From an uncultured Verrucomicrobiota bacterium (GTDB lineage: Bacteria; Verrucomicrobiota; Verrucomicrobiia; Limisphaerales; UBA9464): a stretch of 64,000 bases of DNA. A model generated the notes under the pieces. The model saw only the letters and a list, made by a program, of their open reading frames with translations, was not told the DNA's origin and did not search any database. Positions 1 through 38,055 of this stretch are shown here, piece after piece (positions within the stretch are counted from its first letter, which is position 1; each line of letters starts with the position of its first letter). Both the position numbers and the translations under genes were made by a program. The stretch lies in assembly GCA_903907995.1 (NCBI GenBank), contig CAIVQH010000047.1:1-64000 (forward strand), written 5' to 3'.

Positions 1-414
1 ACAGACCCTTTGTCCATCCCCGGTTCCGGTCGGGCTCCGCCCTCCCTCCACCGGGGATGGACAAACCAACACAGAACCACAACCATCAACCAACTCCTGA
101 GACTCTCATATCCCATGGAGCAGTTTGTGTGGTCCGGTCACTTCCAGCAAGGTGAAAATCTTTCAGGAATGCCGAATTGATGGCAACGTAAAACGCTCCC
201 GACTCCATGGATCCGCATGATTCTCGGATGCGTAAATCGTGGTTTCGCCAGCCATGGGCCGAGGTTTTGGGCGCAGCCGGGCCCCAACGGAATTGGACGG
301 AAATAATTCCGCAACCGGGAGGATTGCCGGCGGTGCGTGATACAATGGCACTGTGAAACCCGAGGCGGAAACCAAGGAAGTAACGGTGGCACTATCCGCA
401 GGACAGCCCCCCAT
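1..414. other. No gene recognised
   Basis: Apart from the hairpin at 9-65, nothing convincing is visible here. The open frames in this stretch have proline/cysteine/histidine-rich compositions typical of chance frames in GC-rich DNA. A 12-bp word (atacaatggcac, near 340) recurs at 738-749, at the junction of the next two genes. Confidence 0.5.
9..65. repeat. Perfect 16-bp inverted repeat (hairpin)
   Basis: Positions 9-24 (tttgtccatccccggt) and 50-65 are exact reverse complements separated by 25 nt. The structure has no T-run, so a Rho-independent terminator is not favoured. It could be the edge of an interspersed palindromic repeat cut by the window end. Confidence 0.7.
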
Positions 415-738
415 TCAGGCAATTGCGGGCAAACACAACCCAGCAAGGATGCTGATCAGCAGGCTCAACCAGCCAATCGTTGCCAGAGGTCGCGCCATCC
501 GCCTCAGGAGGAAGCAGACGATCAACAGCCCGACGACGCTAAACAAACATGTAACTGCCGCTGCCGCCTCAATGACGGATGGGCCGGGAAGTCTATCGAC
601 AGCAAACGGCACCACAAACGATGCAAATAGCAGCGTCTGAAAAAGCCAGAACAGAACGAATAGCAGGTGCCGATGGGATTCCTTTCCCATTTCCTGACTC
701 GAATCCTTTCCCTGATTTTTCTCATTCATGGGGCTCAT
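415..738 (-). CDS. Small membrane protein of unknown function
   Basis: A 107-residue protein starting MSPMNEKNQ. After a short charged N-terminus it has three hydrophobic segments (about residues 26-49, 52-78 and 86-107), so it is probably an integral membrane protein. The ATG at 738-736 overlaps the TGA of the upstream gene as ATGA, which fixes the start and implies translational coupling. No family recognised. Its partner resembles immunity-type conserved hypotheticals, so a joint role is possible but unproven. Confidence 0.6.
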   Translation of the reverse strand: MSPMNEKNQGKDSSQEMGKESHRHLLFVLFWLFQTLLFASFVVPFAVDRLPGPSVIEAAAAVTCLFSVVGLLIVCFLLRRMARPLATIGWLSLLISILAGLCLPAIA

Positions 739-1148
739 ACAATGGCACCATGCTCGTCGAACATTTGTATCTCGCGGGCAAGAACCCAACCTGTCATGCC
801 GTAGGATGATGAAAACTCAAAACCGCGAGTTGCCCGTGCTTTTAAATAGTTCAGCGCCTCATCCTGTGAATCACGCCAAAAACGAGGCCAACCCGAAATC
901 CGGTTGCGTTCCTGAATTTCAGCCAACCGCGGCGTAACGATGCTTTCGGGGGTCACTTCCGTCAGAGCAAAGATGATATTGCCGAGGCAATCGTCACGAA
1001 AATCATAAGCTTCCACTCCGGAGAAGAGGACAGTTGTTCGCTCAAAGGGCTCGCCCTGATCGCGCCACTCGGTATGCAACCGAATCTCCCGAGCCTCGGA
1101 TTTGACTTCGTACCCAACCAAAAAGTTGTCGTGAAGTGACCTCACCAT
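735..1148 (-). CDS. Conserved hypothetical protein, immunity-like
   Basis: A soluble 137-residue protein. It has an N-terminal SLHDNFLVGYEV segment, a central GVEAYDFRDD-x-GNIIF block and a C-terminal SSSYGMTGWVLA block. These three blocks resemble, from memory, a widespread unnamed family of immunity-like hypotheticals. The start is taken at the ATG at 1148; a TTG at 1163 in the same frame is possible. It lies 27 nt after the NIPSNAP gene on the same strand, and its stop overlaps the start of the small membrane protein. Confidence 0.65.
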   Translation of the reverse strand: MVRSLHDNFLVGYEVKSEAREIRLHTEWRDQGEPFERTTVLFSGVEAYDFRDDCLGNIIFALTEVTPESIVTPRLAEIQERNRISGWPRFWRDSQDEALNYLKARATRGFEFSSSYGMTGWVLAREIQMFDEHGAIV

Positions 1149-1175
1149 GTTTTTTGGAGCCAACCGTCTTTCATC

Positions 1176-1976
1176 TCAGATCTGCGACGCCGGCGTGCGC
1201 TTCAGGAAGATGCTGATGACCTTGGAGACGTTGTCCTTGTACTGCGGGTCGCCGCTCAGCTTCTTCCACACCGGCGCGTCGAAGAACGCCTTCCAGTGGA
1301 CCTTGTGCGCGTCCTGGTTTTCGCCGGATACCATGTAGATGAGGTTGGGCATCTGCGCGCCCACCACCGTCTGCGCGAAGAAAACAGGCGTCAGCCCGAC
1401 CTGGTGCATCAGCGGGATCTCGCCGGCGTTGAACATGCCGACCTTGTTGATGCCCTTGCTCTCGCTGTGGCTCTGGTAGATGCGCAGCTCAAAAACCCAC
1501 GGCTTCTTCTCGGCGGCCGAAGGCGGCACGGCGAGCCGCTTCATGCCGTCGAAGGCCACGAGCAGCGAGCTTTCAAAGCGCACGTAGGCGGGGTCGCTCT
1601 TCGGAGTGTTCAGATAGGCGGCACCGGCGGCCTGGTAAGCGGCATCGGCAGCGAGCTTGGCCGGCACCTCGGCATACGCGCCGGGCGTGGCGAAGGGGAT
1701 GAGCACGTAAACCTTGTTGCTCGGGGAATCCGCCAGCTCGGTGAACACGCCGACGGACGCGACGCCCAGGCGATTGTAGGCGGGCACAGCAGCCTTTTCC
1801 CAGTAGTCGCTGATAAGTTTCTGCTGCGCCTCGGTCTTGGTGGTGTAGGTGCGCAGCTCGTAATATTGGGGCGCGACCGACGACGACGAGGAGGTGGTCG
1901 AGCAACCGGTGCTGCCGAGCACGACCAGCAAGGCCGTGAGTGCGAGCAGAGAGCGGAGGAACGTGCGTGGCTTCAT
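1176..1976 (-). CDS. NIPSNAP family lipoprotein
   Basis: A 266-residue protein with a lipoprotein signal (MKPRTFLRSLLALTALLVVL followed by the lipobox LGSTGC). A Ser-rich linker precedes two NIPSNAP-like ferredoxin-fold repeats, the first beginning YYELRTYTTKTEAQQKLI and the second FELRIYQSHSESKGI. NIPSNAP domains occur in bacterial secreted proteins of unknown enzymatic role, often near carbohydrate or amine catabolic genes in this phylum. The start at MKPRT is preferred because longer versions would bury the signal peptide. It is transcribed divergently from the glutamate dehydrogenase gene. Confidence 0.85.
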   Translation of the reverse strand: MKPRTFLRSLLALTALLVVLGSTGCSTTSSSSSVAPQYYELRTYTTKTEAQQKLISDYWEKAAVPAYNRLGVASVGVFTELADSPSNKVYVLIPFATPGAYAEVPAKLAADAAYQAAGAAYLNTPKSDPAYVRFESSLLVAFDGMKRLAVPPSAAEKKPWVFELRIYQSHSESKGINKVGMFNAGEIPLMHQVGLTPVFFAQTVVGAQMPNLIYMVSGENQDAHKVHWKAFFDAPVWKKLSGDPQYKDNVSKVISIFLKRTPASQI

Positions 1977-2093
1977 GTGGTGGCGAATTGTTATGCCCTC
2001 CGACCGCGCGGGCGCAAGGAGCAAGGAGAGTCAGCAGGGTGTCACACCGCTTGCGCCTTCCTCCGCTTGCGCGACATTCCGGGCAGATCACCT

Positions 2094-3350
2094 ATGGACA
2101 TCTACGCCTCGCCGACCTTCGACATGGCCTGCCGCCAGTTCGATCTCGTGGCCGACCATCTGGATATACCCATCAACGACCGCGAACGGCTCAAGTATCC
2201 CAAACGGGCTCTCACCGTCGCCGTGCCCGTCCACCTGGATGACGGCTCCACAAAGGTGTTCACGGGGCATCGCGTCCAACACCATCTCTCCCTCGGGCCG
2301 ACCAAGGGCGGCATCCGCTACCATCCCGACGTGACGCTCGGCGAAGTCGCCGCGCTGGCCATGTGGATGAGCTGGAAATGCGCCCTGACCGGCCTGCCCT
2401 ACGGCGGGGCCAAAGGGGGTGTGGCCGTGAACCCACGCCGACTTTCCCTCGGCGAACTCGAACGGCTCACCCGTCGCTTCACGCAGGAGCTCATCCCCTT
2501 CATCGGCCCGCAGATCGACATTCCCGCGCCCGACATGGGCACCAACGAGCAGACCATGGCTTGGATGATGGACACCTACAGCACCCATGCGGGCCACTCG
2601 GTTCCCGCCGTGGTGACGGGCAAGCCGCTGAGCATCGGCGGCAGCGTAGGCCGGCGCGAGGCCACCGGTCGCGGCGTCGCCTACCTCATCGGGCGCGCGA
2701 TGGACACGCTGGGCATGAATGCCGGCAGCTCCACCGCCGTGGTCCAGGGCTTTGGCAATGTCGGCGCCGTCGCCGCGCAGTCGCTCACCAAGCAGGGCGT
2801 GAAGGTCATCGCCATCAGTGATGTGGACGGCGGCCTGTATAACGCGCACGGCCTGGACCTCTTCAAGCTGGAGCAATGGGCGCAGGAAAAGCGCACCACG
2901 CTGGGCTTCCCCGACGCCGATCCCATCGCCAACGACGAACTCCTCCGGCTGAAGTGTGACGTGCTGGTGCCCGCCGCGCTCGAACGCCAGATCACCGCCG
3001 CCAACGCCGGCCAGATCCAGTGCCGCATCCTCGCCGAAGGCGCGAACGGCCCGACCACGCCCGACGCCGACGTGATCCTCCAGCAGCGCGGCGACGTCTT
3101 CGTGATTCCCGACATCCTCTGCAACGCGGGCGGGGTGGTGGTGAGCTACTTCGAGTGGGTGCAGGACCTGCAGTCGTTCTTCTGGAGCGAAAGCGAGGTC
3201 GTGGACAAGCTCTTCCGCATCCTCGAAGGCGCGTTCACGCAAACCCTCGCGCTGTCCCGCAAGCGCAACCTCCCGATGCGCCTCGCCGCACTCAGCCTCG
3301 GCGTGGGCCGCGTCCAGGAGGCCAAGCGGGTGCGGGGATTGTTTCCTTAA
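2094..3350 (+). CDS. Glu/Leu/Phe/Val dehydrogenase (glutamate dehydrogenase type)
   Basis: A 418-residue hexameric-type amino acid dehydrogenase, catalysing NAD(P)-dependent oxidative deamination, most likely of glutamate. The N-terminal substrate domain shows KGGIRYHP and the catalytic-lysine motif PYGGAKGGVAVNP (residues about 102-114). It also has DIPAPDMGTN and TGKPLSIGGS. The C-terminal Rossmann domain has the dinucleotide motif GFGNVG (about 219-224). Length fits the family. The open frame extends about 800 nt further upstream, but that part is antisense to the NIPSNAP gene. The ATG at 2094 matches normal GDH N-termini. Confidence 0.93.
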   Translation: MDIYASPTFDMACRQFDLVADHLDIPINDRERLKYPKRALTVAVPVHLDDGSTKVFTGHRVQHHLSLGPTKGGIRYHPDVTLGEVAALAMWMSWKCALTGLPYGGAKGGVAVNPRRLSLGELERLTRRFTQELIPFIGPQIDIPAPDMGTNEQTMAWMMDTYSTHAGHSVPAVVTGKPLSIGGSVGRREATGRGVAYLIGRAMDTLGMNAGSSTAVVQGFGNVGAVAAQSLTKQGVKVIAISDVDGGLYNAHGLDLFKLEQWAQEKRTTLGFPDADPIANDELLRLKCDVLVPAALERQITAANAGQIQCRILAEGANGPTTPDADVILQQRGDVFVIPDILCNAGGVVVSYFEWVQDLQSFFWSESEVVDKLFRILEGAFTQTLALSRKRNLPMRLAALSLGVGRVQEAKRVRGLFP

Positions 3351-3403
3351 GTGGCCTCAAGGATGTCTCTGACTTAGCGGGCACCATCCGCAGGCTACAA
3401 TAG

Positions 3404-3895
3404 CTAGCCGGTGGTTATCTTTGCCTGCCGTTCAAGTTGGCGGATATCCCGCAGCGCAATCCACAGCGGTAGTGCCGCTGCCGGAGCGAAGACAAAATCG
3501 ATCCAAAACCAGAACATCGGGATTCCCCGCAGCGGGATGCACACCCCGGTCAGAACCGGAACCGAGGCGCACATGATCAGGCCGCATTGCACGATCCAGA
3601 CGTTGCGAACCGGATCCCGAATCGCGCCCGCGAATAGAACCGCCAGCATGATATGCGCAAAAGCCAGCCAATCGTGCGCATAGAGCAGGAACGGTTGATT
3701 GGCCTTTACCGATTCAATCCCAGCTATGGCCCGGACGATAAACCCGTGAAGATCATTCGTTGGCACTCCATCGCCCCAAACAAGTCGAACGAACGTCTTC
3801 AGCTCCCAGATTACCGGCCAGACAGTCACTCCCGAGACGAACAGGCCGAAAGCCACGATGCTGAGCATCCATTTTGCACGTTTTGAAGGGTTCAT
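3404..3895 (-). CDS. Integral membrane protein of unknown function
   Basis: A 163-residue protein beginning MNPSKRAKWMLSIVAFGLFV. It has four hydrophobic segments, at about residues 9-27, 73-90, 97-118 and 125-145, so it is predicted to be a polytopic inner-membrane protein. An in-frame ATG at 3967 would add 24 charged residues and is less likely. It is convergent with the GDH gene, with only 53 nt between stops. No family recognised. Confidence 0.6.
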   Translation of the reverse strand: MNPSKRAKWMLSIVAFGLFVSGVTVWPVIWELKTFVRLVWGDGVPTNDLHGFIVRAIAGIESVKANQPFLLYAHDWLAFAHIMLAVLFAGAIRDPVRNVWIVQCGLIMCASVPVLTGVCIPLRGIPMFWFWIDFVFAPAAALPLWIALRDIRQLERQAKITTG

Positions 3896-4107
3896 CGCTT
3901 GCTTTCTGAGACTCTGGTGTGACGCACGTTTGTCCGAGTCTGCCGAAAGCTTCCGTCTGAAATCCATCCTTCACTATGAAAAGTGCCAAGCAGGTAATGC
4001 TTGCCAGGCTGGCAAGGTGCAGCGTTTGAAACGCGGATCTCTGCGCCGATGGTTTGGCTTGTCGGCGACACTACCAATTGTCCACCGGTCCGTTCGTCTG
4101 GATTGCC

Positions 4108-5965: not shown

Positions 5966-7642
5966 TCAGCGCGTCAGTTTCAGCATCTCATCGCGACGGG
6001 CCTTGAACTCGGTGCCGGGCTTCCATTCGGGCCAGTTGGAGCCATTGGCCACGCGCAGCCCCACTTGTCGGAGCAGCTCGAGATCTTCGACCGCCCCGGA
6101 GAGGTCCCAGTCCGGCTTCACCTCGTCGCTCACCTTGTGGTAGTCGCGGTCGGTGTATTCGTCGACCTTGGCTTGGCCAAAACCGGCGGGCTTGTCGCGG
6201 TAATCCAACCCGCTGTGCCCGTAGAGCGCGGGCACGCCGACCTTGGCGAACTCAAAATGGTCGCTGCGATAGAAGGTGCCTTTCTCAGGCATCGGCTCGG
6301 GTTTGATCGTGCGGCCCTGCGCGGCGGCCACTTCGCGCACCAGGTCATCCAACGTGGAGTTGCCGAGGCCGACGACCGAAAAGTCCCGCGTCCGGCCCCA
6401 GGTGTTGAGGCCGTCCATGTTGATGTTCGCCAGCGTGCGCGTGAGCGGATAGAGTGGCTGGCTGGCGTAGAACTTCGCCCCCAGCAGTCCCTGCTCCTCC
6501 GCCGTGACGGCCAGGAAGAGCACGGAACGCTTCGGCGGCGTGGGCGCATGGGCGAAGGACTCAGCGAGGCCGAGCAGGCCGGCGGTGCCGATGGCGTTGT
6601 CGGCGGCCCCGTTGAAAATCTGGTCGCCGGTCAGTTTCTCATCACGTCCCAAGTGGTCCCAGTGCGCGGTGTAGATGAGCCATTCGTCACGCAACTTGGC
6701 ATCGCTGCCCGTCAGCTTGGCGACGACATTTTTGGAGCGGACGTGCCGGATCGTGTTCGTCACGTCGAAGTCGGCGGTGAACCCCAACGGCTGCGGGCGG
6801 AAATCGCGGCGCAGCGCGGATGCCTTCGCCGCCTCATAGCTGGTCCCGGCGTCGGCAAAGAGTTTTTGCGCCCGCTCCAGGCTGATCCACGCGGCGATCT
6901 GCACCTGCGACTCGGGATTCGCATCGAGGTCAAAGCGCTCCCGGCCCCAGGAATTCACCACGACGAACCATGGATAGGCCGCCGGCTTGGTCTCATGGAC
7001 GATAAGTGCGGCGGCGGCTCCCTTCTTCGCGGCGATCTCGAACTTGTAGGTCCATCGGCCGTAGTACGTCATCGCCTTCCCCTTGAACATGGAGTCGTCG
7101 AGTTTGGTGGGATCGTGCGGGTCGGGAATGGGCGGGTCATTGATCAGGAACACCACGGTCTTGCCGCGCACATCCACGTCCTTGAAATCATCCCAGCCAT
7201 ATTCCGGCGCGACAATGCCGTAGCCGACGAACACGAGTTCGGAATTGGTGAGCGTCACGCGGTCGCGCTGGGGCGGTGCCCAGGCCACGAAATCCTGCGG
7301 GAAGGTGAGGCTTTCATTCGTGCCGGCGTGATGCAGCAGGAACTGCGTCACGGACTTCATGCCCGCCATCGGCACATCCTGGAACCAGGAGCCGTTAGGA
7401 TTGCCCGGCTGCAGGCCAAAGGACTTGAACTGCTCGACCAGCCACGCGGTGGTGAGTTCCTCGCCATGCGTTCCGGGACCGCGGCCCTCAAATTCATCGG
7501 AGGCAAGTTTCGTGGTGCGCGCGAGAAGTGAAGGTGCGCTCAGGAAGGGATCGGTCGCCGGCACATCGGCGGCGGCCAGATTGGCGACCAAGGCCAGTTG
7601 GACGGCCGCGACGGAACCTGCCAGTCGTGTGAAGGGTTTCAC
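5966..7642 (-). CDS. Secreted M28 family zinc aminopeptidase with PA domain
   Basis: A 558-residue exported peptidase. A GTG start at 7642 gives a clean signal peptide ([20 protein letters not shown]...AAADVP). An ATG further upstream at 7780 would bury it. A PA-type insert lies around residues 120-290 ([20 protein letters not shown]). The M28 catalytic core shows HWDHLG (about 326), GAADNAIG (about 345) and the catalytic pair AEEQG (about 380), followed by NINMDGLN and [10 protein letters not shown]. Together these give the dinuclear zinc ligands H, D, E, D, H. It likely releases N-terminal amino acids from peptides in the periplasm or outside the cell. Confidence 0.88.
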
Positions 7643-7786
7643 GGCGGCTGAAATAGCCCCTCTGTCACGTGACTGCAACGCCGACGTACCCGGACGCAGC
7701 CGTGGGCTTTCCTGAATTCGAAGGCCCAGAGCCTGTGGGGACGCGTTCCCCTTTCCATGAGCCTCGTCTGCCTCTACCAACCCGCA

Positions 7787-8005
7787 GCGCTGAAAGCGCC
7801 ACCGAGTAATGCCTGGGGTGGAGCGAACATGGTGAGCGAAGCCCCAGGGAAAGCTCTGGATTGGGCTGAGGGCTGAAGGCCCGACTCAAGGCACCCCCAC
7901 TTTCGCACGCGCTTGCAGCGCTCGATCGCTTTGGCCCCGTCAACCTGGGGCTGCGCTCGCGAGGCTCGCTCCACCCCAGGCATTACTCAGACGGGCTTTC
8001 AGCCC
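7787..8005. repeat. Palindromic multi-hairpin interspersed repeat (219 bp)
   Basis: A nested inverted repeat. The outer arms are 7787-7799 and 7993-8005 (11 of 13 match, core gctgaaagc). A perfect 23-bp pair follows at 7804-7826 and 7966-7988 (core gcctggggtggagcga), then an inner pair around gccccagg near 7841-7848 and cctggggc near 7945-7952. The centre contains a chance frame on the minus strand that I do not call. The architecture suggests a MITE- or REP-type element. Confidence 0.8.
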
Positions 8006-8092
8006 TGCCAAAGAAAATCCCGCCTGGCCCTCTCACGGAGTGGAGGTTCCGATCATTCTTTCCGGGATTTCATTGCCTCCCTTTTGTTTCTT

Positions 8093-8120
8093 TCCTGCTT
8101 TCCTGCGTTCCAAATTCAAA
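8093..8120 (+). repeat. 28-nt interspersed repeat, copy 1
   Basis: This sequence recurs in inverted orientation at 12592-12619 with 25 of 28 identities (shared block ttccaaattcaaa). A shorter direct match (tcctgctttccaaatt) is at 12679-12694. Confidence 0.65.
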
Positions 8121-8200
8121 ACCTGCTCCCTTCCGCACACGGCCGCGCATTGACTCGCTCCCGCGCACTTCCCAAGCTTGGGCGTCCTTCACCTCGAGTC

Positions 8201-10192
8201 ATGAGCCAGAACATCACGTCCTTCTCCACGGAAAACCGTGTCTTCAAGCCCGCCCCGGAGTTCTCCTCCCAGGCCCACATCGGAAGCCTTGCCGCCTACA
8301 AGAAGCTGTGGACGGAGTCCGTAAAATCGCCCGACCGCTTCTGGTCCAAGCAGGCCAAGGCGGAACTGGTGTGGCAGAAGCCCTTCACGAAGGTGCTCCA
8401 GTGGAAGGAGCCCTACGCGAAGTGGTTCACGGGCGGAAAGCTCAACGTGAGCGCCAACTGCCTGGATCGCTGGCTCGACACGCCGACGGCCAACCAGGCC
8501 GCCCTCATCTGGGAAGGCGAGCCCGCCGCCGACGGCAAGCCGGGCGAGGAACGCGTGCTGACCTACCGCCAGCTCCACCGTGAAGTATGCCGCTTTGCCA
8601 ATGTGCTCCTGCGCAACGGCGTGGTGAAGGGCGACCGCGTGATGCTTTATCTGCCGATGATCCCCGAGGCTGCCATCGCCATGCTGGCCTGCACGCGCAT
8701 CGGTGCCATCCACAGCGTGATCTTTGGCGGCTTCAGCGCGCAGTCGGTCGCGGACCGCGTCGCCGATTGCGGGGCCAAGCTCATCGTCACGGCAGACGGC
8801 GGCTACCGGCGCGGCGCGGTCGTGCCGCTCAAGAAGAACGTGGACGAGGCACTGGAGCTGAAGGCGGCGGACGGAACGCTTCTCGCGAAGAGCGTGACCA
8901 AGGTCGTGGTGGTCCGCCGTTGCGGCAACGAGGTCCATATGACCGAGAGCCGCGACGTGTGGTGGCACCGGGAACTGGAATACGTCACCGCCAAGTGCCC
9001 GGCCGCGAAGCTCGATTCCGAGACGCCGCTCTTCATCCTCTACACCAGCGGTTCGACCGGAAAGCCCAAGGGCATCCTGCACACCACCGCCGGCTACCTG
9101 CTCGGCGCGAAGCTCACCACGAAGTACGTCTTCGACCTGAAGCCGAACGATGTTTACTGGTGCACCGCCGATGTGGGCTGGGTCACCGGCCACAGCTACA
9201 TCGTCTATGGCCCGCTGGCGAACGGCGCGACGGCGCTGATGTACGAGGGCGCGCCGAACTGGCCCGAGCCCGACCGCTTCTGGCGCATCATCGCCAAGTA
9301 CCGCGTCTCGATCCTCTACACCGCGCCGACCGCCATCCGCGCCTTCATGAAGTGGGGCGACGAATGGCCGAAGAAGCACGACCTCTCCTCGCTCCGCCTG
9401 CTCGGCAGCGTGGGCGAACCGATCAATCCCGAGGCCTGGATGTGGTATCACAAGGTCATCGGTGGCGGCCGTTGCCCGATCGTGGACACCTGGTGGCAGA
9501 CCGAGACCGGCAGCATCATGATCACGCCGCTGCCCGGCGCCACGCCCACCAAGCCCGGCACGGCCACGCTGCCGTTCTTCGGCGTCCTCCCCGAGGTCGT
9601 GGACGACCAGGGCAAGGCCGTGCCCAAGGGCACCGGTGGCAAGCTCGTCATCCGCAAGCCCTGGCCGTCCATGCTGCGCGGGCTGTGGGGCGATCCGAAG
9701 CGCTTCGTCGAGACGTACTGGTCGGAGGTGAAGCACTCCTATTTCACCGGCGACGGCTGCCGGCAGGACAAGGACGGCTATTTCTGGATCGTGGGCCGCA
9801 TCGACGACGTGCTGAACGTGGCCGGCCATCGCATCGGCACCGCCGAGGTCGAGAGCGCACTCGTGAGCCATCCCAGCGTGGCCGAGGCCGCAGTGGTCGG
9901 ACGGCCGGATGAGCTGAAAGGCCAGGCACTGGTCTGCTTCGTCACGCTGAAGACCGGTCAGAAGGCCTCAGCCGAGCTGAAGATCGAACTGCGCAACCAC
10001 ATCGGCAAAGAGATCGGCCCAGTGGCCAAGCCCGACGAGGTGCGCTTCGCTGAGGCGCTGCCGAAGACCCGCTCCGGCAAGATCATGCGCCGCCTACTGA
10101 AACAGGTGGCCGCCGGCCTGGAGATCAAGGGCGACACCACGACCCTCGAAGACCTCAGCGTGCTGGCGAAGCTGGCGAGCGGGGAGGAGTGA
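8201..10192 (+). CDS. acsA: Acetyl-CoA synthetase (AMP-forming)
   Basis: A 663-residue enzyme that activates acetate to acetyl-CoA via acetyl-AMP, using ATP. ANL-superfamily motifs are present: the P-loop [11 protein letters not shown] (about 280-290), DTWWQTETG (about 427-435), YFTGDG, and the C-terminal [11 protein letters not shown], whose lysine is the usual acetylation-controlled catalytic residue. Length matches Acs (about 650). The ATG at 8201 gives MSQNITSF; the frame is open further upstream through repeat DNA. It shares its 3' end with the ribosome binding site of the next gene, so the two are probably co-transcribed. Confidence 0.96.
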
Positions 10193-10197
10193 AACGT

Positions 10198-10899
10198 ATG
10201 CGCTCCCAGTTTGCGATCAGCCTAGGTTTGGCCTTGGGTCTGGGTGGGCTCTGCGGCTGCTCCACGATTCTCCGTCACCCGTGGCATTCGATCCACGATG
10301 GGAGCAGTTTCGCCGGCTGGTCCGCGCCGGATATGAGCTACTGGCGCATCGAGGATGGTGCGATCACGGGCGAGACGACCAGGGAGCACAATCCGCCGCG
10401 CAACCAGTTCATCACCTGGCAGGGCGGCGAAGTGCGCGACTTCGAGCTGAAGTTTGAGTTCCGCATCTTCGGCGACCGTTCGAACTCCGGCATGCAGTTC
10501 CGCAGCTCGCTGCATGAGTTCGGGTTGGTGCATGGCTACCAGGCCGACATGGATGGCGCGGGGAAATACCTCGGCGGCATCTGGGACGAATACGGCCCGC
10601 GTCAGTCGCTGGCCGGACGCGGTGAACGAGTGGTCATCGACGAGACCGGCAAACGGACGGTCACCCGTTTCGCTCCGGCGGCCAACCTCACGAAGAGTTT
10701 CCGTCAGGGCCAGTGGAACGAATATCACATCAAGGCCATCGGCCCGAAGGTCACTCTCCGCATCAACGGTGAACTGGTCGCCGAACTGGAAGACCACGAG
10801 GCCGGCAAGGCCCTCACCCACGGCGTGCTCGCCATGCCCATCATCCCTGGCGACCCGATGAAGGTGCAGTTCCGCAACCTGGTTTTGCGCGAATGGTAG
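10198..10899 (+). CDS. DUF1080 (3-keto-disaccharide hydrolase-like) lipoprotein
   Basis: A 233-residue protein with a lipoprotein signal ending GLCGC, so the lipidated cysteine is near residue 22. The DUF1080 concanavalin-like fold shows WRIEDGAITGET, DFELKFEFRI, NSGMQFRS and YQADMD. Such domains are very abundant in Verrucomicrobia and Planctomycetes and bind or cleave 3-keto-sugars. The strong Shine-Dalgarno ggggaggag (10181-10189) is spaced 8 nt from the ATG at 10198. A GTG at 10189, overlapping the acs stop, would sit inside that site, so I prefer 10198. Confidence 0.88.
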   Translation: MRSQFAISLGLALGLGGLCGCSTILRHPWHSIHDGSSFAGWSAPDMSYWRIEDGAITGETTREHNPPRNQFITWQGGEVRDFELKFEFRIFGDRSNSGMQFRSSLHEFGLVHGYQADMDGAGKYLGGIWDEYGPRQSLAGRGERVVIDETGKRTVTRFAPAANLTKSFRQGQWNEYHIKAIGPKVTLRINGELVAELEDHEAGKALTHGVLAMPIIPGDPMKVQFRNLVLREW

Positions 10900-31004: not shown

Positions 31005-31130
31005 GCGCGGGGAGCTTGAAGAAAGACCCGGCCGGGGTGAATGCAAATTGGTGCCGGTCCATCACCGCGGACGCGCCTTTTCAGCATGGTTGGTCTCGAC
31101 TATTGGGAGTCCGGGCGGAGTCGGGTGGCT

Positions 31131-31166
31131 GTTCTCCCTCACCCCGGCCCTCTCCCGCTGGGAGAG
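31131..31166 (+). repeat. Interspersed palindromic repeat, left copy flanking the island
   Basis: A 36-nt sequence beginning gttctccctcacccc and containing the self-complementary ccctctcccgctgggagagg. It is repeated in inverted orientation at 37951-37986 with 33 of 36 identities. Confidence 0.8.
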
Positions 31167-31241
31167 GGGGAATGGTTGCCCGATTGTCGGCGAAGGCCGG
31201 CGCGGGACTGGCCGGAGAATCTTCCATTCAGCAGTAAAAGC

Positions 31242-31286
31242 GAAGCCGAGTTGGGAAGTTTTTGAATTGATTTGAGAATTTTTGGC
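31242..31286 (+). repeat. Left inverted terminal repeat of the island
   Basis: The inner block, 31265-31286 (aattgatttgagaattttt then ggc), matches the reverse complement of 37765-37787 with one substitution and one extra T. The outer block, 31242-31258 (gaagccgagttgggaag), matches the reverse complement of 37814-37830 at 15 of 17 positions. Confidence 0.8.
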
Positions 31287-31346
31287 TTCCGGGGGTCTCG
31301 GCGACCCCTTTCCTCAAGGGGTGCTTAACCGGCCGTTAAGGACACC

Positions 31347-31578
31347 CTACCGCCAGAGCCCGGCCGGGCAAGCGGGCATCCGTTCCCACGGCTTGATCCG
31401 GCGGGCATCCGCCGGACAGACGGCGCAGAGCTTCACGCAGCGGAGGCCGCCGGCGAGGTCGGTGCAGGCACGGCAGATGGTCTCGCGGGCCGCCTGGGCC
31501 TGGCTGGAGGGCGATGGCGTGGCCGCAGTGCTGCCGGAGGGCGGCGGCGGGGAGGCGGGCGGTGATCCGGAAGCGCAT
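31347..31578 (-). pseudogene. Cys-rich zinc-ribbon small protein, apparently frame-disrupted
   Basis: An ATG at 31578 gives MRFRITARLPAAALRQHCGH, but the convincing C-terminal part is in another frame: RETICRACTD, LRCVKLCAVCPADARR, PWERMPACPAGLW, ending with TAG at 31349-31347. That frame has seven cysteines in CxxC-like pairs and a CPxGLW end typical of small phage zinc-ribbon proteins. It has no start codon of its own, and it is in frame with the preceding 789-residue gene across that gene's TGA. Frameshift mutation, programmed shifting or stop readthrough are all possible. Confidence 0.5.
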
Positions 31579-31586
31579 GGGCAGGG

Positions 31587-33956
31587 TCAGTCCGCCAGGT
31601 CGGCCAGGGGCACGTGGACGGCCGGGCTGGAGGGCGTGTAGATCGTGACCTGGATGTTGCTGAAGCAGCTGCCGACGCAGTCGGGCGCGACCCCGTTCCC
31701 GGACACACGGCTGACGTACACCGGGAAGTTCGGGATGGGTCCGGGGCTGATCGAGCCGTTGCGGATCGCCTGGCATTGGTCGGGATAGTCGCGGGTGCCC
31801 GGCGTGAAGAGGGTTGCGCCCGACAAGCCATCCTCCCAGACGGTGTCGGGACCGCCGGAGGAATTGCACTGGCTCCCGCCGGTCAAAGACGCGACATAGG
31901 TACGCCGGTCAAAGGAGTCGTAGCGGTCGCTGATCATCGCGACGAAGTAAGGGGTCAGGCTGAGCTGGTCGCGGATGGGCGCGGGCAGGGTGTCCAGGAG
32001 GTCCGCCGTCCCGTTCCAGCGGAACTCGAAGGTGTTGTAGTCCGTGTCGAGCGCGGCCGTGAGGGGTGAGGCGGTGCGGTCCACGGAGAGCGAGCGGCTG
32101 TTGCTGGTGCCGAACGGGCTGCCGTAGTCGGCCCAATCCGTGTAGGTGGTGCTCCCGCCGCCGCCGGACCCGCCCTCGTAATAGACGGCGTACTGGCTGC
32201 TGCCAAAGCTCCACGCCGAGGTCGCGGCGGCCGATTCTCCCCGGCTGTTGCGCACCTGGCCGGTCACGTCGGTGGAACCCTCGTCGGTGCGCGTCCGGTA
32301 TTGCAGCGTCATCGGCAGCAGCACGCGGAACTCGGTGAGCAGGTTCAGCCGGCGGGCGACGGCGGCGGCCGTCTCGGCGCTGACGACCACGTTGGGCATG
32401 GGGCCGAAGAACTCCGGCTGATCGGGCCGGGTGTCGGCGGCATCGATCAGCTCGGTGGCCTTCGTGGGCAGCACGGGGATGCCCCGGCCGGCGTCGGCGG
32501 CGAAGTTCAGGTTCTCCCAGGTGAAGCTGGCGACGCCCGGCGCATAGTCATCGCCGCTGGCACAGTTGAAGCCCACCGTCGTGGTCGGATCGATGAACCC
32601 CTCACAGGCCGCCCGGATGACCAGGTCCAGATGCGGATAGGGGTCATGCACCAGCGGCGTGTCGGCATCGTTCTGGTCGTCGTTGCCATCCTCGTAGGGC
32701 TCCGGCACGAGCTTGACCCAGTGGAAGCTGGGGAGGATCGCCCCGTAGAAACCGTCCACCAGCCCGTCCGGACCGACAAACGTGGAGTTCAGCGCCTGGT
32801 CACCCACCTTGAACGAGGCGTTCAGCCCGCTATTCGACCAGAGCTGGTATTCCCGCAACCCATTGACCCAGGTGCGGAAGGGTTCGGCGCGAAGGGCGGT
32901 CACATCCCAGGTGGCGTGGTCGCGGCTGAAGTCGGCGGTGTCGTTCGTCGGATCGTGGTGGAAGAACGGCAGCGTGACCTTGATCTCGTCCCCATCCAGC
33001 TCGACCGATTCCGCCTCCGGCCAGGGCTCGAACATCCGGCAGCTGTTGTAGAAGTTCCGGCGCCTCGTCTGGCAGTCGGTGTCGGCATCGTCGCACGCGC
33101 GCAGGTTGGCCCCCAGCAGATGCGCCTCGCTGGCCGGCGTGGGCACATAGTTGAAACTGTCGGGCGCCTGCGGGGAGATCACGCCTTCCGGGGTTTCGAG
33201 CCGGTTCCCGTAGGCCAGGTGATAGAGCACGTTCGGGTCATCGGCGGCGGCGGGATCGCCCACCAGGCAGCGGTTCAGCAGCGGGAAGTAGTCGGCGAAA
33301 ACCTCCGGCTTCCAGGAGCTGGCGGAGTTGGGGTTGTACTGGCACAGGCGCAGGCCCAGCAGCCAGCGGTTACTCCAGCCGGACGACGGCGCGTCATGGA
33401 CGCCATCGGCTTCCATCAGCTCGCCGGTGCCCGTGAACTTGGGCTCATCCTGCGCCGCCGTGAAGATCTGTCCGAGGGTGTAGCCGCGTTTCTGGTAGGT
33501 GACGGTCCCCTTGCTCACCCGGTAGCGCCGGCCCCACACCAGCTCGCCGCTGAGAATCGGGTTCGGCGCGGGGGCAATGCCGCCGAAAAGGTCGATGGGG
33601 ATGTCGTGGCTCGCCCCCCGTGCCCAGCGGCTGAACCAGAGGATGATTTTGCCGCCCTGCCGGGCAATGGCGTGGAAGTTCGCGCGGGGCATGATCCGCA
33701 CGACCTGGCTGAGGCGGCGCGCGGCGTCAAACACGGCGTTGGTGTTGATGACATCCAGCGACCCCGGCAGCGCGATATGCCCCGCCACGGAGCGGATCAC
33801 GCCGTCGCGGAAGTAGTTTTGGGAGATCGTGGCCGCGTAGGTGCAGTCCTCGCCGCTGCCGTCCACCTTGGCCTCGAAATCCACGCCGCCGATGCGCAGC
33901 AGGAGGTAGCAGTCCACGAGGGATGGCTGGTAGGCCCACAGTTCCGTGATCTCCAC
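31587..33956 (-). CDS. Large island protein of unknown function, possibly virion-associated
   Basis: A 789-residue protein, read with a GTG start at 33956 (MEITELWAYQPSLVDCYLLL). No signal peptide and no membrane helix. The N-terminal third is beta-rich (LLLRIGGVDFEAKVDGSG, IILWFSRWARGASHDIPIDLFGG). The middle resembles a structural or tail protein (GYTLGQIFTAAQDEPKFTG, NVLYHLAYGNRLETPEG). A GGSGGGG linker lies near 590-600, and the C-terminal 190 residues contain several cysteines. The frame stays open upstream to 34202, so the start is uncertain. No family recognised. Its position at the left end, transcribed outwards, is reminiscent of tail genes in transposable phages, but that is inference. 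Confidence 0.65.
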   Translation of the reverse strand: MEITELWAYQPSLVDCYLLLRIGGVDFEAKVDGSGEDCTYAATISQNYFRDGVIRSVAGHIALPGSLDVINTNAVFDAARRLSQVVRIMPRANFHAIARQGGKIILWFSRWARGASHDIPIDLFGGIAPAPNPILSGELVWGRRYRVSKGTVTYQKRGYTLGQIFTAAQDEPKFTGTGELMEADGVHDAPSSGWSNRWLLGLRLCQYNPNSASSWKPEVFADYFPLLNRCLVGDPAAADDPNVLYHLAYGNRLETPEGVISPQAPDSFNYVPTPASEAHLLGANLRACDDADTDCQTRRRNFYNSCRMFEPWPEAESVELDGDEIKVTLPFFHHDPTNDTADFSRDHATWDVTALRAEPFRTWVNGLREYQLWSNSGLNASFKVGDQALNSTFVGPDGLVDGFYGAILPSFHWVKLVPEPYEDGNDDQNDADTPLVHDPYPHLDLVIRAACEGFIDPTTTVGFNCASGDDYAPGVASFTWENLNFAADAGRGIPVLPTKATELIDAADTRPDQPEFFGPMPNVVVSAETAAAVARRLNLLTEFRVLLPMTLQYRTRTDEGSTDVTGQVRNSRGESAAATSAWSFGSSQYAVYYEGGSGGGGSTTYTDWADYGSPFGTSNSRSLSVDRTASPLTAALDTDYNTFEFRWNGTADLLDTLPAPIRDQLSLTPYFVAMISDRYDSFDRRTYVASLTGGSQCNSSGGPDTVWEDGLSGATLFTPGTRDYPDQCQAIRNGSISPGPIPNFPVYVSRVSGNGVAPDCVGSCFSNIQVTIYTPSSPAVHVPLADLAD

Positions 33957-34013
33957 GATCAGCTCGCGGGTGACCGCTTCGGCTGTTCGCGGCCCGCCCC
34001 TTCCAATCGGCGG

Positions 34014-34382
34014 ATGGGGTTTCCGGGTGGCCGGAAAGCGCCCCGGACCATTGTGGAGAAGCTGGGCTTTGATCCGGCGCGGATGATGGGGGTGCTGTTC
34101 GTGGCCGGGCTGGTGTCCATCCGGCCGGACGCCTATCTGCCGGCGGAGGGCTATTACTGCCCCACCAAACAGGGACGCCTTTCGCCGTCCCAGCGCCGCC
34201 ACGAAATCGCCGCCCGGCTCACGCAGGGAATTCCGCAGACGGTGATTGCCGCCGAACTCGGCATCACGCGTTCCACGCTCTGGCTGGACATGCAGGCGCT
34301 GAAGGACTGCGGCAAACGGTTTGTCACGCGCCGGGGTCGCGCCTCCTGGGCCAAAAACCGAACCGCCTCCGCCCCATGCTGA
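34014..34382 (+). CDS. Helix-turn-helix protein, first gene of the island operon
   Basis: A 122-residue protein with a helix-turn-helix region at about residues 62-110 (RRHEIAARLTQGIPQTVIAAELGITRSTLWLDMQALK). This pattern is seen in phage regulators such as Mor-like or terminase-small-subunit-like proteins. The N-terminal VEKLGFDPARMMG is unassigned. Start choice (34014) is tentative: the frame is open far upstream, and ATG ATG at 34081-34086 is an alternative. It lies head-to-head with the 789-residue gene with only about 57 nt between. It may control the operon. Confidence 0.6.
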   Translation: MGFPGGRKAPRTIVEKLGFDPARMMGVLFVAGLVSIRPDAYLPAEGYYCPTKQGRLSPSQRRHEIAARLTQGIPQTVIAAELGITRSTLWLDMQALKDCGKRFVTRRGRASWAKNRTASAPC

Positions 34383-35029
34383 CCAAACCTCAGATCATCC
34401 TGTTGAAGCGGCTCCAGCGGGCGGCGGGCCTGGCCGATGCCGATTACCGGGCGCTCTTTCCCGAGGTCACCGGCTTTGCTGACTGCCGGTCCAGCACGGA
34501 CGGGCGGCTCACCAACGAGCACATGGACGCGCTGAAGGGCCGGTTGCTCGCGCTGGCGCGTCCGGCCGATCTGAACGCGCAGCTGCGCCAGCAGGACATG
34601 CCGCGCCGCCGCGCCGAGCATCCGCTGGTGGATCTGCAAAAGTGCCTGGGCGTGTACGTGCCCGACGTGGCGGGCTACGTGGCGACGGTGATTGCCGACA
34701 AGTTTGGCGTGCCGGCGGGCGGCGCACTCACCCTGGACGACCTGAGCGACCAGCCGCGCGTGTGGCGCGGTGCCAATGGCAAGCTGGTGGAAGGCCCCAG
34801 CCAGGTGAAGCAGCTCATCATGACGTTGGCCGCCCGCGTCCAGGCCAAGCGCAAGGCCGCGAAGGACAGCATCCACGACATGCGGCAGAAGGCGGGCGTG
34901 GCGTGCTATTGCCGGATCTGCTGCCCGCCCGGGCAAGTCCGCCTCGTGATCGAGCGCGGCGATGCGGATGAGAGCGGAGCGGCCGAGCCTGTGGGCGTGG
35001 GCGCTGAGGAAGCGGAGGGGCCGTTTTGA
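34376..35029 (+). CDS. GemA/Gp16-like phage protein (DUF1018 type)
   Basis: A 217-residue protein. Residues 1-62 (MLTKPQIILLKRLQRAAGLA, DADYRALFPEVTGFADCRS) follow the pattern of the Mu GemA/gp16 family: a helical start, D-x-x-YR and a V-T-G motif. The rest is helical and basic, then CYCRICCPPG near 175-184. In Mu, GemA modulates host gene expression and gyrase. The start codon lies inside the previous gene's stop region (ATGCTGA). Similarity is by pattern only. Confidence 0.6.
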   Translation: MLTKPQIILLKRLQRAAGLADADYRALFPEVTGFADCRSSTDGRLTNEHMDALKGRLLALARPADLNAQLRQQDMPRRRAEHPLVDLQKCLGVYVPDVAGYVATVIADKFGVPAGGALTLDDLSDQPRVWRGANGKLVEGPSQVKQLIMTLAARVQAKRKAAKDSIHDMRQKAGVACYCRICCPPGQVRLVIERGDADESGAAEPVGVGAEEAEGPF

Positions 35030-35217
35030 AACTCATCCCTGTCGGCAACACCTACGGCAAAAACGCCTTTCGTGAAGTCCGCTTCAAATGCACCCGCTGC
35101 CGGGGCACGCAAAAATGGATGGCCCAATGCGACACGGGCCGACGCGATCAGAATTGCGACCTGTGCCGCGATATGACGCCTCACGTCATCACCGAAGTTT
35201 CCCCGAAAAGGCCCTGA
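35026..35217 (+). CDS. Small zinc-ribbon protein
   Basis: A 63-residue protein with paired cysteines (FKCTRCRGT near 21-28, QCD near 34-36, NCDLCRD near 43-49), consistent with one zinc site. The TTG start overlaps the previous stop as TTGA and is preceded by Shine-Dalgarno ggagggg 5 nt upstream. Phage islands often carry such proteins of unknown role. Confidence 0.6.
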   Translation: MKLIPVGNTYGKNAFREVRFKCTRCRGTQKWMAQCDTGRRDQNCDLCRDMTPHVITEVSPKRP

Positions 35218-35221
35218 TTTT

Positions 35222-35542
35222 ATGACGAAAGAATTCCACGCCGCGTTTGCCGCTGATGATGTGCGCCTGCACTACGCCACTGAAAGTGACGGAGTGCATG
35301 AAGTGCCCGGCCTGAGCCTTTCCGTGGAGAAGGGGCAGACGATTTCCATCTACGAATTTCCCAACGCGTCGGCCTACGAAGTTCGCGGCCGTCTGGTCGT
35401 GGCCACCACGGCGCGGTTGCCCGTGGATGAAGGCGTAAAAAAGGATGCTTTCGAGGTGGGCTTGGCCCTGGGGGTTGTCCTCGGTGTGGTGGCGACCTGG
35501 TTGTTTCTCCGGTGGGCGGTGAACCGCGCCAGCTGGTGCTGA
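35222..35542 (+). CDS. Small protein with C-terminal membrane anchor
   Basis: A 106-residue protein. Residues 1-78 are a beta-rich soluble domain (LSLSVEKGQTISIYEFPNAS), followed by one transmembrane helix (FEVGLALGVVLGVVATWLFL). The ATG lies 4 nt after the zinc-ribbon gene. Phage lysis or membrane-associated early proteins can look like this, but no family is recognised. Confidence 0.55.
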   Translation: MTKEFHAAFAADDVRLHYATESDGVHEVPGLSLSVEKGQTISIYEFPNASAYEVRGRLVVATTARLPVDEGVKKDAFEVGLALGVVLGVVATWLFLRWAVNRASWC

Positions 35543-35546
35543 GCGT

Positions 35547-35792
35547 ATGACCAACGATTACAAAATGAGAAACCTTTTGGGCCGGTCCGAAATCAGGAAG
35601 CTGGAGGCCGAGGGGTGGTGTTTTTCCGAGCACGGGACCCGGCTGGGTGACTGCTATTCGGTCTGGTCACAGCATGAGGAAACCAAGGAATTGAAGATCC
35701 GCTTTCTGGCCGATCCTGAGACCTACCCGAACGCCTGGCCGGAAGACGCCCCAGCCCAGCCCGACAGCCAGCCGGAACTGGCCCTGCTTTGA
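35547..35792 (+). CDS. Small hypothetical island protein
   Basis: An 81-residue acidic, soluble protein starting MTNDYKMRNLLGRSEIRKLE, with a Pro/Gln-rich C-terminus. It starts 4 nt after the previous gene and its stop overlaps the methyltransferase TTG start. No family recognised. Confidence 0.5.
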   Translation: MTNDYKMRNLLGRSEIRKLEAEGWCFSEHGTRLGDCYSVWSQHEETKELKIRFLADPETYPNAWPEDAPAQPDSQPELALL

Positions 35793-37243
35793 AACACTGC
35801 GCCGATCTCTTCTGCGGTGCCGGCGGCACGTCCACCGGTCTGCTGCTGGCCGCTGCTGAGCTGGGCCTCAACGTGGACCTGCTCGCGGTCAACCATTGGT
35901 CGCTGGCGATTGATACCCACACGGCCAATCACCCGCAGGTCCGCCATCTGTGCGAGTCTCTCGACCACATTGACCCCACGGAGGTGATTCCCGGCGGCCG
36001 GCTGGAGCTGCTGTGCGCCAGTCCGGAATGCACGCACCACAGCCGCGCCCGTGGCGGCAAGCCCCGCAGCGACCAGAGCCGTGCCAGCGCGTGGAAGATC
36101 ATCGACTGGGTGAGCAAGCTGCACGTCAAGAACCTGCTGATCGAGAACGTCGCCGAGTTCGTCGATTGGGCCCCACTCACGAAGGCCGGCAAGCCGATGA
36201 AGCGCCGCAAGGGCAAGACCTTTCAGGCGTTTCTGGCCGCCCTCCGCTGCCAGTTTGCCCACGTCGAGTGGAAGATCCTCAACTGCGCCGACTACGGGGA
36301 CGCCACCACCCGCAAGCGCCTCTTTATCATGTGCCGGCGGTCCAAGCGCATCACCTGGCCGGCTCCGACCCATGCCGGGCAGTGGCGGGCGGCCCGCGAG
36401 GTGATTGATTGGAGCCTGGAAGGTCGAAGCATTTATGGCCGAAAAAAGCCATTGAGCGAGAACACGCGCCGCCGGATCGAGGCGGGCCTGCGTAAGTTCG
36501 GCGGCGAGAAGTTCTGCCTCCAGATTGACCATACGGGCGGCGGCAACGGCTGCCTGCGGTCGGCCGATCAGCCGCTGGGCACTTTGGTCACCAAAGAGAA
36601 CGTGGCGCTGGCGGAGCCCTTTATTGTCCATCTGCGGGGCACGCATCCCAGCCAGGTCAACAGTTCGGCGCGGTCCGTGGATGCGCCCTTGCCGGCGCTG
36701 ACGACCAGCGGGGCGCATGTTGGTCTCGCGGAGCCCTTCCTGCTGAAATATCACGGCTCACACAAGGGGCGGAACGATGGTGATGCCCGGAACTACCCTT
36801 TGGACGAACCTTTGCCGACGCTCGACACGTCGAACCGGATTGCCCTGGTGCAGCCCTTCGTGATCGGCCAGCAGAGCTGCGCGGCGGCGCGGCCGGTGTC
36901 GGAGCCGCTGCCTACTGTGGCCACGGCCGGGGCCATCGCGCTGGTTGAACCGTTTCTGGTCAAATACTACGGCACGGGCGGGGCCAATTCCGTCACGGAG
37001 CCGCTCGACACGGTCACCACGCGGGATCGCTTCGGCCTGTGCCAGCCGGAGGTTGAGATTGCCGGCGAGCGTTACCGGCTCGACGTGCGTTTCCGCATGT
37101 TGCAGCCGCATGAGCTGTCCGCCGCGATGGGGTTTCCAGCGGATTACCAGTTTTCCGGCAACCGCGAGGCCCGCGTGAAGCAGATCGGCAATGCCGTGCC
37201 GGTTCGGACCGCCATGGCCCTCTGCAAGGAACTGCTTCGGTGA
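35789..37243 (+). CDS. Phage-type DNA (cytosine-5) methyltransferase
   Basis: A 484-residue C5 methyltransferase that transfers methyl from SAM to cytosine. Motif I is LFCGAGGTSTG (7-17). The catalytic motif IV is LCASPECTHHS with Cys81, and SPEC replaces the common PPC. Motif VI is IENV (118-121), motif VIII-like DATTRKRLF (171-179), and motif X QIGNAVPV (465-472). Between 258 and 420 there are five imperfect repeats of the form EPLPT-T...ALVEPF. No restriction endonuclease is nearby, so the enzyme may be an orphan protecting mobile DNA or regulating. TTG start coupled to the previous stop. Confidence 0.88.
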   Translation: MKHCADLFCGAGGTSTGLLLAAAELGLNVDLLAVNHWSLAIDTHTANHPQVRHLCESLDHIDPTEVIPGGRLELLCASPECTHHSRARGGKPRSDQSRASAWKIIDWVSKLHVKNLLIENVAEFVDWAPLTKAGKPMKRRKGKTFQAFLAALRCQFAHVEWKILNCADYGDATTRKRLFIMCRRSKRITWPAPTHAGQWRAAREVIDWSLEGRSIYGRKKPLSENTRRRIEAGLRKFGGEKFCLQIDHTGGGNGCLRSADQPLGTLVTKENVALAEPFIVHLRGTHPSQVNSSARSVDAPLPALTTSGAHVGLAEPFLLKYHGSHKGRNDGDARNYPLDEPLPTLDTSNRIALVQPFVIGQQSCAAARPVSEPLPTVATAGAIALVEPFLVKYYGTGGANSVTEPLDTVTTRDRFGLCQPEVEIAGERYRLDVRFRMLQPHELSAAMGFPADYQFSGNREARVKQIGNAVPVRTAMALCKELLR

Positions 37244-37758
37244 AACCGCCCAAAGCCCAGCGCCTGAAGCAGCAGACCGGGGAGGATTTGCAGGGGGCTT
37301 TGCTGGGCTTCATCCAGGGCAAGTTTTACGGGCAGGCCCCGGCGGAGCGCGTGGCCTTCCTCAAGGATCGGCGGCGGTTGCGGGAATGGGTTGTCCTCTG
37401 GCCCGCCACCTGGCTGAACGAGCGCGGCGTGTCGTTCCCGCCGGAGCGTTACCAGGAGATCGTGACGGGCATCCTGATGGACGCCGTGCGCTACGGGAAC
37501 ACGGAAGCCATCGCCTACCGGCCCGCCTGGCTCGGCAAGGTCGTCCAGAGCCATTTCCGGCTGCAAGGGGAGTCGATTTACGAGGAAGGGAAGGCGTTGC
37601 GGACCGCGATGGAACTGACGCTGTCCACCCTGGCCGTGGTCGCCGGGCATTCCCGCCCGCGTGACGTGGTGGCGGACATGGCAGCGGCGGCGGCGCTGCT
37701 GAAGGCCCCGAAGCGCAAGACTCAACCGGCGGTTAAGGTGCAATTAAACCTGTGGTAA
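37240..37758 (+). CDS. Hypothetical protein, last gene of the island operon
   Basis: A 172-residue basic, helical protein (MKPPKAQRLKQQTGEDLQGA, RERxW-like WVVLWPATWLNERGVSFPPERYQEIVTGILMD). The GTG start overlaps the methyltransferase TGA. Its 3' end lies 6 nt before the right inverted repeat, and the sequence ccggcggttaaggt inside its end resembles a motif near the left end. No family recognised; a DNA-binding role would fit but is speculative. Confidence 0.6.
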   Translation: MKPPKAQRLKQQTGEDLQGALLGFIQGKFYGQAPAERVAFLKDRRRLREWVVLWPATWLNERGVSFPPERYQEIVTGILMDAVRYGNTEAIAYRPAWLGKVVQSHFRLQGESIYEEGKALRTAMELTLSTLAVVAGHSRPRDVVADMAAAAALLKAPKRKTQPAVKVQLNLW

Positions 37759-37764
37759 CCCCCT

Positions 37765-37830
37765 GCCAAAAAATTCTCAGATCAATTCGAACTGGCGGCA
37801 GTGGTGCCGGTTTCTTCCCAAAACGGCTTC
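37765..37830 (-). repeat. Right inverted terminal repeat of the island
   Basis: The inner block 37765-37787 and outer block 37814-37830 are inverse copies of the left-end blocks (31265-31286 and 31242-31258). Spacing between blocks differs (26 nt here, 6 nt at the left), as in multi-site transposon ends. Confidence 0.75.
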
Positions 37831-37950
37831 CGAGGCTGGTTTCCGACGTAAGTCGTTGATCTTCGGGCTGCTTCGGCCTTGTTCGGCCTATTTCACCCTT
37901 TCCCAGATCGCGCGCGAAGACTCACAGCTGGCGGCATTCCCCGCTGTCCT

Positions 37951-37986
37951 CTCTCCCAGCGGGAGAGGGTTAGGGTGAGGGAGAAC
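37951..37986 (-). repeat. Interspersed palindromic repeat, right copy flanking the island
   Basis: The inverse of 31131-31166 (33 of 36 identical). It includes ctctcccagcgggagag, a stem-loop. It lies 120 nt beyond the right terminal repeat and 69 nt from the PQQ-propeller stop. Confidence 0.8.
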
Positions 37987-38055
37987 GGCCCGCCTTCGCC
38001 AAGGCCGACTTCCTCTCCGAAGCCGGTAGCTGAACTCGGTGGCAAGATGCGTCTC

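Follow-up and report, generated by a model that had tools for sequence, protein, structure and literature searches.

A probable natural mini-Mu with both multi-site ends in the genome of an uncultured Verrucomicrobiota bacterium

Genes and features of the island

The window, a 64,000-nucleotide stretch of DNA from an uncultured Verrucomicrobiota bacterium, carries a compact island of phage-like genes that interrupts one copy of a dispersed repeat (Table 1).

Table 1. Features of the island and of its insertion site (positions in the window; MuA, MuB and GemA are named after phage Mu)
Feature	Position	Strand	Remarks
Dispersed ~200-bp hairpin repeat, left part (target)	31103..31232	.	67 genome matches; 7/7 fetched copies read through the junction
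Flanking CAGC, left copy	31229..31232	.	possible target duplication
Island, probable Mu-like remnant	31233-37924		6,692 bp; placed by repeat junctions and termini
Left terminus	31233..31247	+	AGTAAAAGCG...; aligned by eye with G328, G323, G016 and G325
L1, transposase-binding-like site	31248..31258	+	same offset in G328; within a block of the preliminary description; binding inferred
L2, transposase-binding-like site	31269..31279	+	21 bp from L1, a spacing shared with G328; pairs with R3
Small Cys-rich (CxxC) frame	31345..31520	-	adjoins left end; no in-frame start seen; by eye
Phage tail gene, 3' ~792 codons	31587..33965	-	N-terminal ~440 codons missing
Inferred deletion junction, late arm/early arm	33965..34014	.	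tail homology ends; HTH ORF starts at 34014
HTH protein	34014..34382	+	HTH_11 and HTH_23 barely above cut-offs (region 34050-34379)
GemA/Gp16-like protein	34376..35029	+	217 aa; similar to Mu GemA; homologues upstream of p172 in relatives
CxxC...CxxC protein	35026..35217	+	63 aa; 53% to the ORF adjoining MuB in L062
Small protein	35222..35542	+	106 aa; membrane-like by eye; ORF without family
ORF	35547..35792	+	81 aa; no convincing family
Phage-type C5-cytosine methyltransferase	35789..37243	+	484 aa; PF00145 E=9e-30; phrog_116 E=2e-69
p172, right-end gene of the phage lineage	37240..37758	+	homologues near right end of relatives
R3, transposase-binding-like site	37773..37783	-	pairs with L2
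R2, transposase-binding-like site	37814..37824	-	by eye
R1, transposase-binding-like site	37899..37909	-	15 bp inside terminus; by eye
Right terminus	37910..37924	-	...GCGCGCGAAGACTCA-3'; conserved in 14 other right ends
Flanking CAGC, right copy	37925..37928	.
Dispersed repeat, right part, with flank	37929..38040	.

Next to the left end lies a Cys-rich frame, with counterparts, again seen by eye, at the left ends of the relatives G325 and G328. The gene that follows is the 789-residue ORF of an earlier, preliminary description of this DNA. The ORF exists, and it is only the 3' part of a longer tail gene of ~1,230 codons. Homology begins at about position 33965, which corresponds to residue ~442 of the G016 protein and ~440 of the G323 protein, with 33% and 43% identity, respectively. 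We call it a tail gene from its position beside other tail genes, without a family match.

The remaining genes, from the HTH protein to p172, form an operon-like series of open, tightly packed ORFs on the other strand. The GemA-like protein resembles Mu GemA (26% identity over 88 aa, pairwise E=4e-4); it has no match in Pfam, and a single-sequence search of IMG/VR confirmed no relative. In the relatives compared, the HTH, 106-aa and 81-aa proteins have no homologues. The methyltransferase matches Dcm/MTase_II models, with a score under the NCBIfam dcm cut-off. Thus the GemA/Gp16-like gene, the small Cys-rich ORFs (then called zinc ribbons) and the phage-type methyltransferase of the preliminary description are all in place. 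So is its observation that transposases and integrases are absent: scans of eight island proteins against Pfam, PHROGs, NCBIfam and PADLOC reveal none, and the MuA-type transposase and MuB by which we recognise a complete Mu-like prophage are both missing from this set. Pfam and PHROGs also revealed no packaging or hijack gene in the island.

The insertion site

The left flank ends in ...TTCAGC at 31232 and the right flank resumes with CAGC TGGCGG after ...GACTCA at 37924, so the element must span the interval between them. Earlier borders, at 31242 and 37830, had been drawn on genuine inverted blocks, but the site R1 and the right terminus lie up to ~95 bp beyond the second of them.

The interrupted repeat, of ~200 bp, has 67 matches in the host genome, several of which are the two arms of one copy. 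Because the island sits within it, the paralogous copies can serve as empty sites. In fact, when the two flanks of the island are joined, they align across the junction with all seven of the other copies fetched, at 81-84% identity. Every fetched copy is thus uninterrupted. The repeat reads CCCTCACCCCGGCCCTCTCCC...GGGAGAGGG...GGGTGAGGG and is split in the window between 31103-31232 and 37929-37990. One copy, when folded, gives a long hairpin (z = -7.15); the copies tested against Rfam (L002, L005 and L009) have no match there, and the repeat is possibly a MITE- or REPIN-like element. The longest inverted repeat of the neighbourhood, 43 nt at 31127-31169 and 37948-37990, was considered as the end of the island and rejected because it belongs to this dispersed repeat.

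The match that flanks the island, CAGC, is exact over 4 bp, as against a perfect 5 bp around the G016 prophage. The left terminal base of the island is A, as in G325, and T in three of the four aligned relatives. Both points count against the prophage reading given below. The host genome holds no second copy of the island, and the end motif occurs there at the two ends only, apart from one place with 3 mismatches.

The multi-site ends

The best inverted match between the two 200-bp ends is a 23-nt block (31261-31283 with 37769-37791), complementary at 21 of 23 positions (91%); 60 first-order Markov resamplings reach at most 17 of 23, so the inverted blocks already reported at both ends are real. 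A second pair, 31242-31258 with 37814-37830, was seen on direct reading of the sequence. These block pairs of the preliminary description are L2/R3 and L1/R2, which would be bound by a transposase. Two further similar stretches, ttaaccggccgttaagg at the left and aaccggcggttaagg at the right, are also found; the right copy falls within the p172 coding sequence.

At the left, the island aligns without gaps with G328 (AGTAAAAGCGAAGCCGAGTTGGGAAG...GATTTGAGAAT in the island, TGTAAAAACGAAAACGCTTTGAGAAG...GGTTTGAGAG in G328); its match to G323, G016 and G325 is looser. The termini aligned by eye are TGTAAAAACG (G328), TGTAAAACCG (G323), TGTAGCCGCG (G016) and AGTAACTCGC (G325). At the right, the island reads TGAGTCTTCGCGCGCGATCTGGGAAA in the inward direction. 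Fourteen other right ends share its TGA[A/G]TCT (inward), an agreement that is partly by choice because the rows were anchored on the terminus itself, as AGA[C/T]TCA at the expected place. By eye, most of these 14 also have a CGCGCG-like sequence with a site at ~16 bp (R1) and another at ~100 bp (R2). The set represents 14 of 19 loci: L056 repeats L055, L054 and L057 are without the final A, L060 stops short of the terminus and L044 has no such end that we could see. The ends of the island are thus homologous to the multi-site ends of full-length Mu-like phages, and, since they are conserved elsewhere, the discrete element of the preliminary description withstood its own check on this point.

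Full-length relatives

Homologues of the tail-like protein occur in 3 of 144 other relative genomes searched, and those of p172 in 9 of 319 other genomes of the order. In G016 the two homologues share a contig and mark either end of a prophage of 39,023 bp, whose termini read TGTAGCC.../...GTAGACTCA and which has a perfect duplication of 5 bp, GCGTG. This prophage encodes a MuA-like transposase (phrog_310, E=3e-14), a MuB-like ATPase (phrog_296, E=8e-22), Gam (PF07352, E=2e-29), Portal_Mu (PF06074, E=1e-56) and also a GemA-like protein. G323, an IMG/VR sequence of 39,429 bp classed as linear, has ends that we read as complete. Its tail gene (327-3911) lies on the minus strand together with its homologues of terminase (phrog_675, E=4e-30), portal (phrog_113, E=2e-25) and MuF, and the genes for MuA (phrog_310, E=2e-11), MuB (phrog_296, E=2e-26), the GemA-like protein and p172 occupy the plus strand up to the right end. 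In both phages, the only two in which we read the strand layout, the tail homologue adjoins the left end and p172 the right end; the matched late genes run leftward, and MuA, the GemA-like gene and p172 run rightward. The genes next to the ends of the island are therefore homologous to the genes next to the ends of complete phages.

Scans with a p172 alignment found 7 loci in genomes and 11 in viral sequences. Where ~8 kb or more of sequence precedes p172, which holds for 11 loci, MuA is present in that stretch in ten, the exception being G127; MuB was detected in seven of these ten. Two of the ten, L055 and L056, are nearly the same phage. L020, L022, L050, L054-L058, L061 and L062 make up an uncultivated Mu-like lineage with a divergent MuA: all five of the MuA proteins tested match phrog_310, and the four tested against Pfam have no transposase match above the cut-off.

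The tail gene is also seen in other company. A homologue in G100 (L019 387-1685, G100:C196) adjoins a tyrosine recombinase-like gene, by eye split into two ORFs, and the tail gene may for this reason also travel with integrase-type elements.

The missing middle

What the island lacks is everything that lies between the two arms: the rest of the tail gene, the virion genes, terminase, MuA, MuB and Gam (which G016 possesses). An alignment of the MuA of this phage family, which matches in 5 of 145 relatives as a positive control, finds no such transposase in the host genome, where all 23 candidates were scored. Searches of that genome for Portal_Mu and Gam are likewise empty; these do not show absence, because the control genomes gave no match either. 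As binning often discards phage contigs, little can be concluded from a bin that shows no phage genes outside the island. We did not find the exact parent of the island; the nearest proteins are 43-51% identical.

G127 (L045, reverse complement ~7050-10340, G127:C184) is a probable second derivative without MuA, which is found nowhere in that genome. Its p172 relative is distant and interrupted by a stop, and is preceded, by eye, by a GemA-like ORF, which the island GemA-like query does not match at E 0.01, and by an ORF that we take to be DUF5131-like. A typical right terminus follows (...GCGCGCGGCAAGATTCA). Directly upstream is a leftward late block, different from that of the island, in which a portal-like gene seems by eye to have no start. 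The contig includes runs of N and ends before any left end. G127 seems to hold a second, decayed remnant.

Origin of the island

With its termini and insertion site in place, its arms homologous to opposite ends of a phage and the central module gone, the island is, with high probability, an internally deleted, non-autonomous remnant of a Mu-like prophage: a natural "mini-Mu". We envision that a Mu-like phage integrated by transposition into one copy of the dispersed repeat and that a large part of its interior was deleted afterwards, a loss of ~32 kb if the parent had the ~39-kb size of its relatives. What would then remain is a left arm transcribed leftward, made up of the left end and the truncated tail gene, and a right arm transcribed rightward, with the HTH, GemA-like and small proteins, the C5-methyltransferase, p172 and the right end. 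We infer a single deletion event, although the junction may also reflect a mis-assembly of this metagenome-derived genome. The open and tightly packed ORFs from HTH to p172 suggest that the deletion is fairly recent. Mobility has presumably been lost: without transposase, MuB, Gam, terminase, portal and capsid genes, the island should neither transpose autonomously nor form particles. Five Mu-type sites (L1, L2, R1, R2 and R3) nevertheless remain, and a related phage could therefore, in principle, mobilise it in trans in the fashion of a mini-Mu.

Could such mobilisation be the way of life of the island? It would then be a non-autonomous satellite or mini-element, moved by the transposase of a related phage and packaged with that phage. 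The two multi-site ends are both retained and similar to each other, the operon is open up to p172, and G127 seems to be another MuA-less derivative that kept this arm up to the right end. In addition, MuA of this family was found in three of the ten p172-bearing genomes (G016, G292 and G312) and not in the other seven, though in five of these the contig with p172 stops short of where MuA would be expected. All the same, we hold this origin to be unlikely. The host genome has one copy of the island and, among the candidates scored, no MuA of the family; ~2.4 kb of the 6.7 kb is a truncated tail gene, which a satellite under selection would hardly be expected to keep; genes for packaging or hijacking are not recognised; and in G127 itself p172 contains a stop. 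Of the origins first proposed, the dedicated satellite of a Mu-like phage is thus disfavoured by the single copy, the lack of a recognised transposase and the truncated gene. The decayed prophage with Mu-type multi-site ends is supported by the relatives, which share its ends and end genes, and by the 5-bp duplication in G016; and the new non-autonomous transposable element survives in the weak sense that both ends were kept and the transposase lost, not otherwise.

Alternatively, the host could have domesticated the island, retaining the operon of methyltransferase and GemA-like genes after the death of the phage. The open operon would fit, as would the match of the methyltransferase to Dcm/MTase_II models, albeit below the NCBIfam dcm cut-off. 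However, the p172 query finds nothing in the seven other genomes of the genus, and the relatives carry methyltransferases too (G016, and G017 beside p172), so that we give domestication very little credence. A wider scenario is that Verrucomicrobiota Mu-like phages with opposed arms repeatedly spawn MuA-less mini-phages, which would keep both end complexes and the arm of GemA, methyltransferase and p172 and spread as satellites on the transposase and capsids of their relatives. This is a speculation that we would not bet on. A deleted prophage remains our preferred reading of the island.

Comparison with known systems

The remnant itself is a case of ordinary prophage decay, and yet it pointed us to a lineage of Mu-like phages in Verrucomicrobiota that seems not to have been described before. 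The conserved right terminus of this lineage, TGARTCT (inward), offers a handle for finding further members and their remnants. In tblastn searches of 50,697 GenBank phage records, one MuA query and one p172 query had no match. We found no literature that brings the terms Mu-like and transposable phage together with Verrucomicrobia, within a partial coverage of the papers on Mu-like prophages in that group; one report mentions degraded Verrucomicrobia prophage regions, one of them with two Mu-like proteins (PMC6920513). The parent lineage, with its oppositely transcribed arms, thus seems to be undescribed.

The family likeness to Escherichia phage Mu and Mu-like phages lies in the multi-site inverted ends and, in G016, in the 5-bp duplication together with MuA, MuB, Gam, Portal_Mu and a GemA-like gene; the island differs from them in having no MuA, MuB, Gam or virion genes. 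The relatives also depart from Mu in their layout. The Mu transposase gene starts at 1,328, near the left end (in the first 12 kb of the record), whereas theirs lies several kb before p172, and their late genes run leftward to the left end and their early genes rightward to the right end. The laboratory mini-Mu, in which both Mu ends are kept and internal genes deleted, moves only when transposase is supplied in trans. The island has the same construction, but it is natural, and its mobility is hypothetical.

KS10, a transposable phage of Burkholderia, is similar in part of its layout: some of its head genes are encoded on the minus strand, in front of a transposition module on the plus strand, and it has four terminal binding sites, with no flanking repeat detected (PMC2628397). 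Its tail genes lie at the right end and on the plus strand, unlike the leftward tail gene at the left end here (PMC2628397). Thus KS10 offers a partial precedent for modules transcribed in opposite directions (PMC2628397).
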